NCBI GenBank assembly: GCA_027068415.1
Contig: JAMOTD010000018.1
Location: 62,001 to 126,000, forward strand
Direction: 5' to 3'
From: Desulfurobacteriaceae bacterium
GTDB taxonomy: Bacteria; Aquificota; Aquificia; Desulfurobacteriales; Desulfurobacteriaceae
DNA length: 64,000 nt
The position numbers were made by a program, and so were the translations under genes. The notes under the pieces are model-generated. The model did no database searches and was not told the origin of the DNA. It worked only from the letters and a program-made list of their open reading frames with translations. This document shows, piece by piece, positions 32,733 through 41,564 of the stretch; within the stretch, counting starts at the first letter, position 1; the number at the start of each line of letters is the position of its first letter.

Positions 32733-32756
32733 AAGGGAGGGGAGCTCCCCTCCCTT
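32733..32756 (-). terminator. Rho-independent terminator of the acs operon
   Basis: A perfect 24-bp palindrome centred on GAGCTC (arms AAGGGAGGGGAG / CTCCCCTCCCTT), 14 nt after the acs stop codon. On the minus strand it is followed by TTCTT. Well placed to stop minus-strand transcription before the CRISPR leader. Confidence 0.75.
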
Positions 32757-32769
32757 AAAAATCGGAAAA

Positions 32770-34665
32770 TTAATCTTCAAGGGTAGAAAGGTCTCCCGGA
32801 TCCATACCGAGCTCTTTAGCCTTAAGGACCCTTCTCATAATCTTTCCGCTTCTGGTCTTTGGTAGCTTGTCAACGAACTCAATTTCAGAGGGAACGGCGA
32901 GAGCTCCGAGCTCCATCCTTACGTGGTACCTAAGGTCCTCAACAAGCTTATCAGAAGCTGAGTAACCCTCTTTAAGAACTACGAAAGCCTTAATGGTTTC
33001 ACCCTTAACCGGGTCCGGCTTACCGATAACTGCTGCTTCGGCAACTGCCGGGTGGGAAACAAGCGCAGACTCAACCTCCATCGTTCCAATCCTGTGACCT
33101 GAAACGTTAATAACGTCGTCTGCACGGCCGAGAATCATTATGTAGCCGTCTTTATCCTTAACCGCAACGTCGCCGGCAGTGTAGCAGTTTGGAATCGTGT
33201 TCCAGTACTGCTCATAGCGCTCAGGGTTCTTCCAAATTGTCCTCATCATTGAAGGCCACGGATGCTTGATTACGAGGAAACCTCCTTTGTTTGGCTCAAC
33301 TGGATTACCCTCCTTATCAACTACGTCTGCAATAACGCCGGGAACGGGCTTTCCGGCTTTACCGGGTTTCATCGGAAGGCCGTCAATTGTAGTAATCATT
33401 ACAGCACCGGTCTCTGTTTGCCACCAAGTGTCCACAATCGGGCACTTTTCTTTACCAATTACCCTGTAGTACCAAAGCCAAGCTTCGGGGTTGATGGGCT
33501 CTCCGACTGAGCCGAGAAGCCTTAAGGAAGAGAGGTCGTACTTGTTGGGCCACTCCTCACCTGCCCTCATAAACATCCTGATTGCAGTCGGGGCTGTGTA
33601 GAAGATGTTTACGCCGTACTTCTCAACAATTCTCCACCAGCGGCCGAAGTCGGGGTAGTTGGGAGCTCCCTCGGCAATAACCTGGGTAGCACCTGCAACG
33701 AGCGGACCGTAAACGATGTAGCTGTGGCCGGTAATCCAACCCGGGTCTGCAGTACACCAGTAAACGTCGTCCTCTTTCAGGTCAAATACAGTCTTCATTG
33801 AGTAGTAAGTTCCAACCATATAACCACCGGTCGTGTGGAGAACACCCTTTGGCTTACCGGTTGAACCTGAAGTGTAGAGGATAAAGAGGGGGTCTTCTGA
33901 GTCCATAACTTCGGGCTCGCAGTAGTCAAGGTGGCCGTCCATAAACTCGTAGAAGTCAACCTCTTTTTCGCCAATAAGGTCAACTTTAGGCTCAAGCCTC
34001 CTCAGAACTACAACTTGCTCAACGAATGGCAGGTCTAAGATAGCCTCGTCAACAATTCTCTTAAGGGGAATTGCCCTTCCGCGCCTGATTGTGACGTCTG
34101 CGGTGATTACCATCTTGGCCTCGGCGTCCTCAATTCTGTGCCTTAAAGCAGGGACGCTGAAGCCTGCGTAAACTACTGAGTGAACTGCACCTATACGGGC
34201 GCAGGCAAGCATTGCAACAACCTGCTCAATAACGAGAGGCATGTAGATGACTACCCTATCTCCCTTCTTGATGCCCGCAGCTTTTAGGGCGTTTGCAAAC
34301 CTGTTAACAAGGCGGTAGAGCTCCCCGTAGGTTACAACTCTCTCGTTTCCGAGCTCATCCTCCCAGAAGAAGGCAACCTTGTTGCGCTTGCCGTTCTTAA
34401 CGTGGCGGTCAAGGGCGTTTACAGTGATGTTTGTCTTCCCGCCGACAAACCACTTAGCGTAAGGGTGGTTCCACTCTAAAACCTTTTCCCACTTCTCGTA
34501 CCAGAAGAGCTCCTCGGCAACGCTCGCCCAGAACTTCTCGGGGTCTTCAAGGAAGCGCTTGTACTCGGCCTCGTAGTCCTTAACGTTTGCCCTCTCAACA
34601 AACTCCTTAGGTGGGTAGATAACCGTTTCCTTCTGCAGAAGGTGGTCAAGCTTCTCCTCTGCCAT
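32770..34665 (-). CDS. acs: acetyl-CoA synthetase
   Basis: 631 residues, normal length. '[16 protein letters not shown]' near 257-272 is the AMP-binding P-loop, '[15 protein letters not shown]' near 405 the A5/acetate-pocket motif, '[31 protein letters not shown]' (split) near 490-520 the hinge, and '[12 protein letters not shown]' near 606 carries the lysine acetylated to regulate Acs. Converts acetate, ATP and CoA to acetyl-CoA. Last gene of the porin-satP-acs operon, 25 nt after satP, so it activates imported acetate. Confidence 0.97.
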
Positions 34666-34690: not shown

Positions 34691-35236
34691 TTAAGCCTGA
34701 GCCATAGACTCAGTTAAAAGAGTTTTAAAGGCAACGTACATTGCAGAAGCACCACAGAGTATTCCTTCCCAGCCTGCAACTGTTTTTATAGCGGTACTTC
34801 CGGTAAAGTCTCCAAGTGCAAGGAGGAAGAAGAGAATCCAAAGCGTTATAAAGACAAACTGAATATCAGCCCCGTGCTTTGTTTTATAAAGGACAATCCA
34901 GAGGAGAAACGTAAAGATTCCCCACATTAGGAGGTAGAAGACAATTCCAAGCTTATCCTGAGGAGCCCACCATCCCCACTTACTCATTAACAAGAGGAAA
35001 ACCAAGCTCTCCCAAAAAAGGCCGTAAGACGTAAAGGCAAGGGCTCCAAAAGTATTGTTCTTCTTAAAATCCATAATTCCGGCAATTATCTGAGCAAGTC
35101 CGCCGTAGAAGATTCCCATAGCTAAAATCATAGTTCCGAGGTTAATAATACCGGCGTTGTGTAGGTTTAAAAGAACCGTTGTAATACCAAAGCCGAAAAG
35201 TCCCAGCGGTGCAGGGTTAGCAATCTTCAATTCCAT
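34691..35236 (-). CDS. satP: acetate/succinate permease (SatP, GPR1/FUN34/YaaH family)
   Basis: 181 residues from ATG 35236, chosen because TAAGGAGGGAGTC lies just upstream; the longer frame from 35269 has no such site. Six membrane segments. 'NPAPLGLFGFGITTVLLNLHNAG' near the N terminus (read as NPAPLGLFGFG) is the family signature, and 'GLAQIIAGIMDF' near 47-58 the second. Moves acetate across the inner membrane. Sits between an outer-membrane porin and acs in one operon. Longer final segment region is normal for the family. Confidence 0.92.
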   Translation of the reverse strand: MELKIANPAPLGLFGFGITTVLLNLHNAGIINLGTMILAMGIFYGGLAQIIAGIMDFKKNNTFGALAFTSYGLFWESLVFLLLMSKWGWWAPQDKLGIVFYLLMWGIFTFLLWIVLYKTKHGADIQFVFITLWILFFLLALGDFTGSTAIKTVAGWEGILCGASAMYVAFKTLLTESMAQA

Positions 35237-35262
35237 GACTCCCTCCTTACTATAAGATTTAT

Positions 35263-36522
35263 TTACCATACGTAGATTGCTGAAGCCATCAGTCTATTTC
35301 CGTGCTCAACGCCATTATCGTAAAGGGTTTCCTGGTGGTCAATCTCAAGACCAAAGGTAACTCCAGGAGCAAACTTGTAAAGGACGTTTCCGAAAGCCCT
35401 CCAGTTCTTCTCGTAAGTGCCTGCTTTATCTGCATCGTCGTTATCAGGGTCGTTCATACCGGCACCAAAGTTGAAGGAAATTTTTTCAAAGGGTTTCATT
35501 GAAAGCTGGATAAAACCACCTTTCGTTTGTAGTTCTTCAACATCTTCCCCATCAAGATAATGGGCAGGAGTAAATACGAGGAAATCTCGTGACGTAAGTC
35601 CTTGACCAACATAAGCCTCACCTTTTATTCCCATAGGGATAAAGAGATTAAATGGGATATTCCATTCAACGGCTACAAGGTAATCATTAACATCATCCTT
35701 ATACCACTTATCTAACTTCTTATCGTCGTTCGTATCAACTCCTATCTCATCACTTCCCTGTCTATAAGCTCCACCGAGGGCTAAGTATAGGGGCTTACCG
35801 GTACCGAGAAGGTCTCCCTTGTAGAAGGCTTTAGCTCCGAGCCAGGGCATTCTCATACCGACACCGTCGGTAGTGGCAGAGCTCTTCCAGGCAGTTGCAA
35901 GAACTCCGAAACCTCCGCCGAGATTTTGAGTAATTGTTATCTGAGCTACCCTGTCCCATAGGTTACCGGAGGCTCCCATGCTCAAGAAGTCAAGGGTTGA
36001 GGCCATCTGAGAGGCAATCGGGATGTAGTCCTGACCGATTCTGATGTTGGTTCCCTGACCGTCGTTTAAGTTAATGTAAGAGAGCCTAATCCTGAAAGCT
36101 CCATTATCCTTACCGCTACCGCCCAATCCGTAAAAGTCCCCCTCAACTCTACCGGTAACTTTCCAGCCGTCAACCTCAGGGCCGTCAACGATAAAGCCAA
36201 GGCGCGTATCCTTCATGTTGAAGGTAGCCCTGTCTGCTCTATCCCCCCGAGGGAGTTTTGTGATGAAGGCGTCGGCACCCATGTTGTGGGTGTCGTAGAT
36301 GGCGTCCATCTTGATTTTTCCGTAGATTTTGATGGGGCTTTTAACGCCGACCACTGCCTTTCCACCCCTTGCGGCCTCAAGCCTGTTCAGCTTTGCCTGA
36401 AGCTTTGCCATCTGCTCCTGAAGTGCCTTGATTTGAGCCTTAAGGAGCTCAACTTCATCCTGGGCCAGTGCAGGAGCAGAGAGCATAGACATCGTTAATA
36501 CCGACAGCAGAGCTCTCCTCAT
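35263..36522 (-). CDS. outer-membrane porin with N-terminal coiled coil (DcaP-like)
   Basis: 419 residues. Signal peptide 'MRRALLSVLTMSMLSAPALA' (cleavage after ALA, residue 20), then a coiled coil ('VELLKAQIKALQEQMAKL', 'QAKLNRLEA') as in trimeric DcaP-type porins, then 'IKIYGKIKMDAIYDTH' and beta-strand repeats. Ends with aromatic 'SAIYVW', a usual outer-membrane insertion signal. Probably lets acetate or other small acids through the outer membrane, judged from its operon with satP and acs. First gene of that operon, divergent from the orphan response regulator. Confidence 0.82.
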   Translation of the reverse strand: MRRALLSVLTMSMLSAPALAQDEVELLKAQIKALQEQMAKLQAKLNRLEAARGGKAVVGVKSPIKIYGKIKMDAIYDTHNMGADAFITKLPRGDRADRATFNMKDTRLGFIVDGPEVDGWKVTGRVEGDFYGLGGSGKDNGAFRIRLSYINLNDGQGTNIRIGQDYIPIASQMASTLDFLSMGASGNLWDRVAQITITQNLGGGFGVLATAWKSSATTDGVGMRMPWLGAKAFYKGDLLGTGKPLYLALGGAYRQGSDEIGVDTNDDKKLDKWYKDDVNDYLVAVEWNIPFNLFIPMGIKGEAYVGQGLTSRDFLVFTPAHYLDGEDVEELQTKGGFIQLSMKPFEKISFNFGAGMNDPDNDDADKAGTYEKNWRAFGNVLYKFAPGVTFGLEIDHQETLYDNGVEHGNRLMASAIYVW

Positions 36523-36547
36523 AGCACGTCCTCCTGTTGTTGCAGTA

Positions 36548-36558
36548 TTTTAACAAAA
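36548..36558. promoter_or_regulatory. half-site TTTTAACAAAA near the porin start
   Basis: An 11-bp copy identical to part of the palindrome at 36611, located 26 nt from the porin start codon. The two copies lie 72 bp apart and flank the intergenic centre, where a shorter inverted repeat (GGAAG-TAAC-CTTCC, 36586-36599) lies. Confidence 0.4.
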
Positions 36559-36610
36559 TTTTTAAATTAAGTTTGTAAAATTAAGGGAAGTAACCTTCCT
36601 TCTTAAAATC

Positions 36611-36628
36611 TTGTTAAAATTTTAACAA
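36611..36628. promoter_or_regulatory. 18-bp perfect palindrome upstream of the response regulator gene
   Basis: TTGTTAAAATTTTAACAA reads the same on both strands and lies 12 nt before the ATG of the response regulator. Its right half (TTTTAACAAAA) recurs at 36548-36558 near the divergent porin start. A likely regulator-binding site controlling both divergent units; the neighbouring OmpR-type protein is the obvious candidate to bind it. Confidence 0.55.
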
Positions 36629-36640
36629 AAAGGTGTAAAA

Positions 36641-37297
36641 ATGGCAAAGGTGCTACTGATAGAAGACGACAAGAGTTTGGCGAACGAGATTTACGAAGTA
36701 TTTACAGACAACGGATTTGAAGTAGAGATAGGAACGTCCCAAGAGGACATATTGAAGAGAAACGGATACTCCTTTTTAATTCTTGACCTTGCACTTCTTG
36801 GAACTAAAGGGCTTGAAATATGTAAGAGGGTAAAGGAAAAGAAGGATATCCCAATAGTAGTCCTAAGCTCAGTCTGCAACACAGACGTTAAAGTCAAGTG
36901 GTTTGAGATGGGAGCTGATGACTTCTTAGTAAAACCCTTCAGCACAAAGGAGCTCCTTGCTCGTTCAAAAGCAATTTTGAGAAGGTACAGGGAAAAACTT
37001 CGTAACGTTCTTGAGTTTGAAGGAATAATACTCAAGAAAAAAGAAGGAAGAGTAATAATTGGCGATAAAAGTGTTGACTTAACGAAAATAGAACTTGAGA
37101 TTCTGGAACTTTTGATGAAGTATCAAGAGGAAGTTCTATCTAAGGACTTTATAATAAGGAAGATTTGGAAGGACAAGAAAAAGAATTCCAGAATTCTTGA
37201 CGTTTATATTTACCGTTTAAGGCGCAAACTCGGAGAAAAGGGTAAGCACCTTAAAACCCTAACAAACGTCGGCTACATCTTAACGCGGAACGTTTAA
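36641..37297 (+). CDS. orphan OmpR/PhoB-type response regulator
   Basis: 218 residues. Receiver domain ~1-117: acidic pair 'IEDDK' at 7-11, phospho-acceptor Asp49 in 'FLILDLALLG', Ser76 in 'VVLSSV' and Lys98 in 'FLVKPFS'. Winged-helix domain ~120-218 with recognition-helix region 'ILDVYIYRLRRKLG' and 'LTNVGYILT'. No histidine kinase adjacent. Faces the porin-satP-acs operon, so it probably controls acetate uptake and perhaps itself. AT-rich codon use compared with its neighbours. Its stop overlaps the convergent CNNM gene by 4 nt. Confidence 0.93.
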   Translation: MAKVLLIEDDKSLANEIYEVFTDNGFEVEIGTSQEDILKRNGYSFLILDLALLGTKGLEICKRVKEKKDIPIVVLSSVCNTDVKVKWFEMGADDFLVKPFSTKELLARSKAILRRYREKLRNVLEFEGIILKKKEGRVIIGDKSVDLTKIELEILELLMKYQEEVLSKDFIIRKIWKDKKKNSRILDVYIYRLRRKLGEKGKHLKTLTNVGYILTRNV

Positions 37298-41357: not shown

Positions 41358-41564
41358 CTACGGGTAATCAACTCCTCCTTTAGAGAAGGGATTACACCTT
41401 AAAACCCTGTAAAGGGCTTTTAAACCTCCCCTTAAAAGGCCGTACTTCTCTATGGCCATAACGGCGTAGGAGGAGCAGGAGGGGTAGTAGCGGCACTTCC
41501 CCGGAGTTAACGGAGAGATAAACTTCTGATAAAGCTTTATCAGGAAAATTACCGACTCTTTCAA
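41358..41564 (-). CDS. yidD: membrane protein insertion efficiency factor YidD
   Basis: 68 residues. '[23 protein letters not shown]' (read as '[19 protein letters not shown]') near 9-31, '[12 protein letters not shown]' and '[15 protein letters not shown]' are the full YidD signature with its three Cys. A small peripheral inner-membrane protein that helps YidC-dependent insertion. Overlaps rnpA by 4 nt. Confidence 0.96.

Follow-up and report, generated by a model that had tools for sequence, protein, structure and literature searches.

Tandem 11-bp boxes beneath a species-specific palindrome point to a shared switch of carbon-fixation, redox and acetate genes in the Desulfurobacteriaceae

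In a Desulfurobacteriaceae genome, the gap between a divergent acetate operon and the response-regulator gene P0001 carries on its regulator side 11-bp boxes (TGTWAAAA plus three bases) repeated in tandem, an array that is probably the functional element of that side and would be read by a response regulator of the OmpR/PhoB family. This one box recurs before carbon-fixation, redox and acetate genes of the family, which points to a shared switch, and the sites taken together delineate a predicted tandem-box regulon over reductive tricarboxylic acid (TCA) cycle and redox genes, in the style of ArcA and PhoB. As part of the same probable explanation, a perfect 18-bp palindrome in the gap would have arisen incidentally, through the alteration of a single box in this species.

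The divergent gap, its palindrome and its direct repeats

The features of the region are given below in the coordinates of the window, which is the whole 64,000-nt stretch of DNA analysed.

32770..34665, minus strand: acetate-CoA ligase Acs (TIGR02188, 920 bits, cut-off 725)
34691..35269, minus strand: acetate uptake transporter AceTr, GPR1/FUN34/YaaH type (NF038013, 229.7 bits, cut-off 50)
35263..36522, minus strand: porin-like outer-membrane protein, DcaP-like (slightly below the Pfam cut-off; the orthologue in G004 is above it)
36523..36640: divergent gap of 118 bp, 26% G+C, flanked by the porin operon on the minus strand and by the response-regulator gene on the plus strand
36537..36584, minus strand: block conserved on the porin side, in which the units TTTAAAAA and TGTTAAAA are clear and a third, TGCAACAA, is weak; it includes the 11-mer at 36548-36558
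36586-36599: small dyad GGAAG-TAAC-CTTCC, read from the gap sequence
36601..36641, plus strand: 11-bp direct-repeat array of four units, defined by a 3-mismatch pattern match (C18:98612-98641) and by conservation in relatives
36601-36608: array unit 1, TCTTAAAA
36612-36619: array unit 2, TGTTAAAA
36623-36630: array unit 3, TAACAAAA, altered (3 of 8 positions mismatched)
36634-36641: array unit 4, TGTAAAAA, overlapping the first base of the ATG
36611-36628: perfect 18-bp palindrome TTGTTAAAATTTTAACAA, 12 nt 5′ of the regulator ATG at 36641
36641..37297, plus strand: P0001, OmpR/PhoB-type response regulator (Pfam Response_reg and Trans_reg_C)

The original prediction had singled out the palindrome in front of the regulator ATG as operator-like, together with a second copy of its 11-bp half near the porin start and a smaller dyad in between, and all three elements were found as described: the 11-mer TTTTAACAAAA lies at 36548-36558 and 36620-36630, 72 bp apart, with the dyad between the two copies. 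The palindrome is unusual for the base composition: among 5000 dinucleotide-shuffled versions of the 118-bp gap, a palindrome of at least 18 bp arose in 0.5% and a repeated 11-mer in 2.3%. Four perfect palindromes of at least 18 bp are present in the window, this one included; a 24-bp G+C-rich one (AAGGGAGGGGAGCTCCCCTCCCTT, 32733-32756) lies immediately 3′ of acs and is probably a terminator, and another of 18 bp (CTGATAAAGCTTTATCAG, 41526-41543) lies between YidC-like and RnpA-like genes.

The original prediction had made conservation in orthologous gaps a test of the operator reading and had suggested a genome-wide search near other genes, and both comparisons went against the palindrome. 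In the gap alignment the palindrome was absent from all eight orthologous gaps, which are 119-145 bp long in the seven other genomes with a measured length, and the small dyad was missing from the aligned relatives' gaps as well. A search of 1,595,312 bases of this genome for the exact 18-mer TTGTTAANNNNTTAACAA returned the single copy at 36611-36628; with up to two mismatches, 15 places were matched vs 5 for the reversed pattern. What the eight aligned relatives keep on the regulator side is a series of GTTAAA or TGTAAA boxes that repeat at 11-bp intervals as far as the start codon. The final box contains TGTAAA in all of them, and the array, which abuts the start codon, has the formula TGTWAAAA-N3 with an 11-bp period. 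The palindrome is a species-specific composite of array units 2 and 3, the latter altered. Two histories fit the alignment: 11 bp may have been inserted and 6 bp deleted, or 5 bp inserted and unit 3 changed by substitutions. A sequence-only model was built from the eight relatives' regulator-side arrays, with this genome left out of training; it lists seven matches here at E ≤ 1, and the genome's own regulator gap is not among them, so the regulator-side array is weaker here than in the relatives.

The porin-side block is shared with relatives around TTGTAACAAAATTTTAAAATTT and contains a 3-mismatch array match on the minus strand (C18:98537-98566). A model of this block, R2, matched C18:98538-98584 with an E value of 3.2e-8, this genome having been in its training set; it matched the orthologous gaps strongly and otherwise gave mostly weak matches. 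Thus, the part of the original prediction that placed regulatory sites in the gap has held, and its porin-side TTTTAACAAAA falls within a conserved block, but conservation does not extend to the palindrome. The suggestion that a palindrome might betray a binder of another kind found no sign in its favour, and direct repeats of the OmpR/PhoB type lie beneath it.

Array sites across the family

The eight-array model found the promoters of sucC, ATP-citrate lyase, malate dehydrogenase, NuoA and a sulfide-dehydrogenase-like gene. Whole genomes were then searched with three consecutive TGTWAAAANNN units, allowing up to three mismatches, which gave 92 matches in 15 family genomes vs 4 for the reversed pattern; G012, which is 62% complete, was the one family genome of the 15 with zero matches. 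The spacing was specific, as 12-bp units gave 7 matches in the 15 genomes vs 92 at 11 bp, and 10-bp units gave 8, at least three of them shadows of 11-bp sites. In nine genomes outside the family, 22 matches vs 17 for the reversed pattern amounted to little excess. The 92 matches merged into 72 sites, 67 of which lie within 300 bp of the start of a gene of the target set, with gene identities taken from Pfam and NCBIfam:

sucC, 10 sites
acn, 10 sites
aclB, 5 sites
icd, 2 sites
frdA, 6 sites
mdh, 4 sites
nuoA of two complexes, 13 sites
sulfide-dehydrogenase/glutamate-synthase-like cluster, 8 sites
P0001/porin/AceTr gap, 9 sites

The other five sites comprise one at a contig end beside rtcB, a gene that faces acn in other genomes, two before a heptosyltransferase and two with no assigned gene. 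All seven sites of the present genome fit the target set. The arrays at acn and at the second nuoA (nuoA_2) are inverted relative to their genes. One array, at G000:C6:85181 (L190), precedes the second nuoA cluster just 3′ of the phosphate transporter genes pstC-pstA-pstB, inverted relative to nuoA. At five loci (L214, L194, L204, L210 and L198), two FrdA/SdhA-like genes about 67% identical to each other diverge around an array site. In the sister family, G022 carries a 1-mismatch array before isocitrate dehydrogenase (G022:C55:14777, L072), against a high background of 11 matches vs 10.

The target genes had been named from these first-round matches, and therefore only seven held-out family genomes, new to this pattern, provide an independent test. 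They gave 28 matches vs 1 for the reversed pattern, merging into 27 sites, of which 24 lie at the same target set, counting one NuoA call at 30% identity and the regulator gap of G020, which had already been used in model training. Of the three remaining sites, one precedes an unnamed ORF and the other two fall within the icd-aclB stretch, behind a small additional ORF. The array precedes sucC in 10 of the 15 family genomes and in 5 of the 7 held-out ones. Collectively, the sites show what is expected of an OmpR/PhoB-type tandem-box regulon: two or more direct repeats at 11-bp centre-to-centre spacing, retention of the repeats in orthologous promoters (the eight relatives' gaps and sucC), and a regulator with receiver and Trans_reg_C domains, P0001, encoded at one of the sites. 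As in the ArcA regulon, multi-repeat sites stand before central carbon and redox genes.

P0001, RR_A and the proposed mechanism

Orthologues of P0001 with 69-87% identity were found in 8 of 60 other genomes searched, all of the same family; in seven of these genomes the orthologue's gene faces a porin and in the remaining one, G011, it faces the acetate transporter, and the contig of G020 ends inside the porin that faces the orthologue. A search of genome contigs with P0001 gave five loci, the two close named relatives being a Thermovibrio MAG and a Desulfurobacteriaceae MAG. AceTr is encoded in 6 of 41 genomes and adjoins a P0001-type regulator in all six. In G004 and G007 (L053 and L048), AceTr is replaced by DUF485 and ActP at the same divergent gap and regulator, and the operon there comprises the porin, a DUF485 protein, the acetate symporter ActP, a cyclic-nucleotide/CBS/DUF294 protein, a DnaQ-type exonuclease and Acs. 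Therefore, the gap tracks acetate uptake and activation, whichever transporter is present. P0001 scored 143.1 with the curated PhoB model, below its cut-off of 296.2, and no kinase gene was found in its neighbourhood. The Thr/Ser switch position of the receiver is Cys (LCS) in two of nine P0001 orthologues (G006 and G011) and Ser in seven, hinting at an atypical receiver in those two.

Array sites also occur in six genomes that lack P0001 (G002, G003, G005, G009, G010 and G014). Since these genomes retain the regulon, P0001 is unnecessary for most sites, and it was ruled out as master of the entire regulon. Among the five Trans_reg_C proteins of this genome, the PhoB-like response regulator RR_A (G000:C6:115105) has the DNA-binding domain nearest to that of P0001, with 35 of 74 residues identical (47%) vs 30/67, 23/72 and 21/68 for other Trans_reg_C proteins, and its recognition helix TTRTVDVYISRLRKKLG, read in nine family genomes from the alignment and in G019, resembles NSRILDVYIYRLRRKLG of P0001. 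RR_A matches to P0001, at about 37-46% identity, occur in at least 20 of 22 family genomes among the matches listed. Most of the closest proteins from other families differ in this helix, with KNLR for SRLR, and at most of the loci read there a neighbouring gene of 433-441 aa could be a kinase. The best-scoring models for RR_A were PhoB (243.8, curated cut-off 296.2), MtrA and RppA; the ArcA model was not among the best 25 of its 39 matches. None of the 92 family array matches lies at an RR_A gene, and therefore no autoregulation supports RR_A as the binder. From its distribution and its 47% identical DNA-binding domain, we infer that RR_A is likely the family-wide binder, and that its relative P0001 likely binds this gap and controls itself and the acetate operon; the two may share boxes.

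The response regulator would read the boxes head to tail along one face of the helix, with RR_A acting family-wide and P0001 at the acetate gap. The last box at sucC falls on TGTTAAAAT, which ends 31-33 bp before the ATG and which, from its resemblance to the consensus, we take to be an extended minus-10-like element. Repression is expected because the array overlaps TGTTAAAAT at sucC and reaches the start codon at the P0001 gene; occupancy of these two sites would then repress by occlusion, as ArcA does at respiratory genes, an outcome about as probable as activation.

Competing explanations, known systems and significance

Two explanations would give the palindrome a role of its own. A dimeric repressor such as Rex, with the palindrome as its operator, is suggested by the 18-mer being, letter for letter, the clostridial Rex consensus TTGTTAANNNNTTAACAA as excerpted from PMC8457756, and by its rarity by chance and its position over a likely promoter. 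Rex regulons couple an encoded Rex with an operator that is conserved and recurs, and neither was found here: the Rex N-terminal family is present in 0 of 41 genomes, this one included (controls were positive in 7 of 14), and the palindrome has its one exact genomic copy and is missing from 8 of 8 orthologous gaps. The Rex operator was dropped on these grounds and is extremely improbable. That the palindrome is a newly gained, species-specific inverted-repeat site for the local regulator or another protein would account for 18 perfect bases, rare by chance, and the flanking array units have stayed in 11-bp phase; however, head-to-tail binding is the rule among OmpR/PhoB-type proteins whose complexes are known, and no second copy exists at this genome's other array sites, which makes such a gain unlikely.

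Other explanations accept the array and question its reader. Phased A-tracts or promoter elements, with TGTTAAAAT as an extended minus 10, could bend DNA without a specific binder, and the AT-richness, the often minus-10-like last unit and the period near a helical turn agree with this; yet the reversed pattern, whose A-tract phasing is equal, gave the 4 matches set against 92, the matches fall on one coherent gene set, and outside the family the counts were nearly level (22 vs 17). Phased A-tracts alone were rejected on the reversed control and the target specificity, and the explanation as a whole is very unlikely. It is rather unlikely, finally, that an unrelated family-wide transcription factor reads the array and P0001 is a mere neighbour: the regulon does exist in genomes without P0001, but 11-bp direct repeats are an OmpR/PhoB signature, and the array touches the start codon of P0001 and is conserved in its orthologues. 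The tandem array read by an OmpR/PhoB-family regulator is the preferred explanation.

The architecture can be set beside known systems. The PhoB box is TGTCA, unlike TGTWAAAA here. CrbR is of the LuxR type, whereas P0001 has a Trans_reg_C winged helix, and no SSS-domain kinase was found in the P0001 neighbourhood; the likeness to CrbS/CrbR (MxtR/ErdR), as excerpted accounts present it, is that a two-component system regulates acs and acetate transport. PhoP, according to an excerpt of PMC4832192, binds 7-bp motifs with a strict 4-bp spacer as head-to-tail dimers, and three or four motifs are bound more tightly; the tandem 7-bp plus 4-bp layout is alike, but the excerpted PhoP motif is TCACAGC. 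Sites of Escherichia coli ArcA, in the excerpted PMC3798270, consist of two to five direct repeats, mostly three to five and mainly 11 bp apart, before carbon-oxidation and redox genes. The sites described here resemble them in their multiple 11-bp repeats at carbon and redox genes; they differ in that genes of the autotrophic reductive TCA cycle, such as the one for ATP-citrate lyase, are among the targets, and RR_A scores highest on PhoB models rather than on ArcA.

No description of transcriptional control of the reductive TCA cycle in the Desulfurobacteriaceae was found in the literature excerpts consulted, including those of the Thermovibrio ammonificans paper PMC5441870. The architecture and the protein family are already known, and the target set and the lineage would be the new part, as neither was found in the literature consulted. 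The case also illustrates that a striking perfect palindrome can mislead where a conserved direct repeat lies beneath it. For reductive TCA control, the array supplies a concrete cis-element, a target list and two candidate regulators. On an evenly balanced judgement, it may belong to an undescribed global regulon of the Desulfurobacteriaceae that would place the reductive TCA cycle, complex I and fumarate reductase under joint control with acetate assimilation. Its tandem 11-bp boxes would be recognised by an orphan PhoB-like response regulator and by a paralogue that arose by duplication and is specific to acetate, and the system would be the equivalent of ArcA in an autotroph, with a separate origin.
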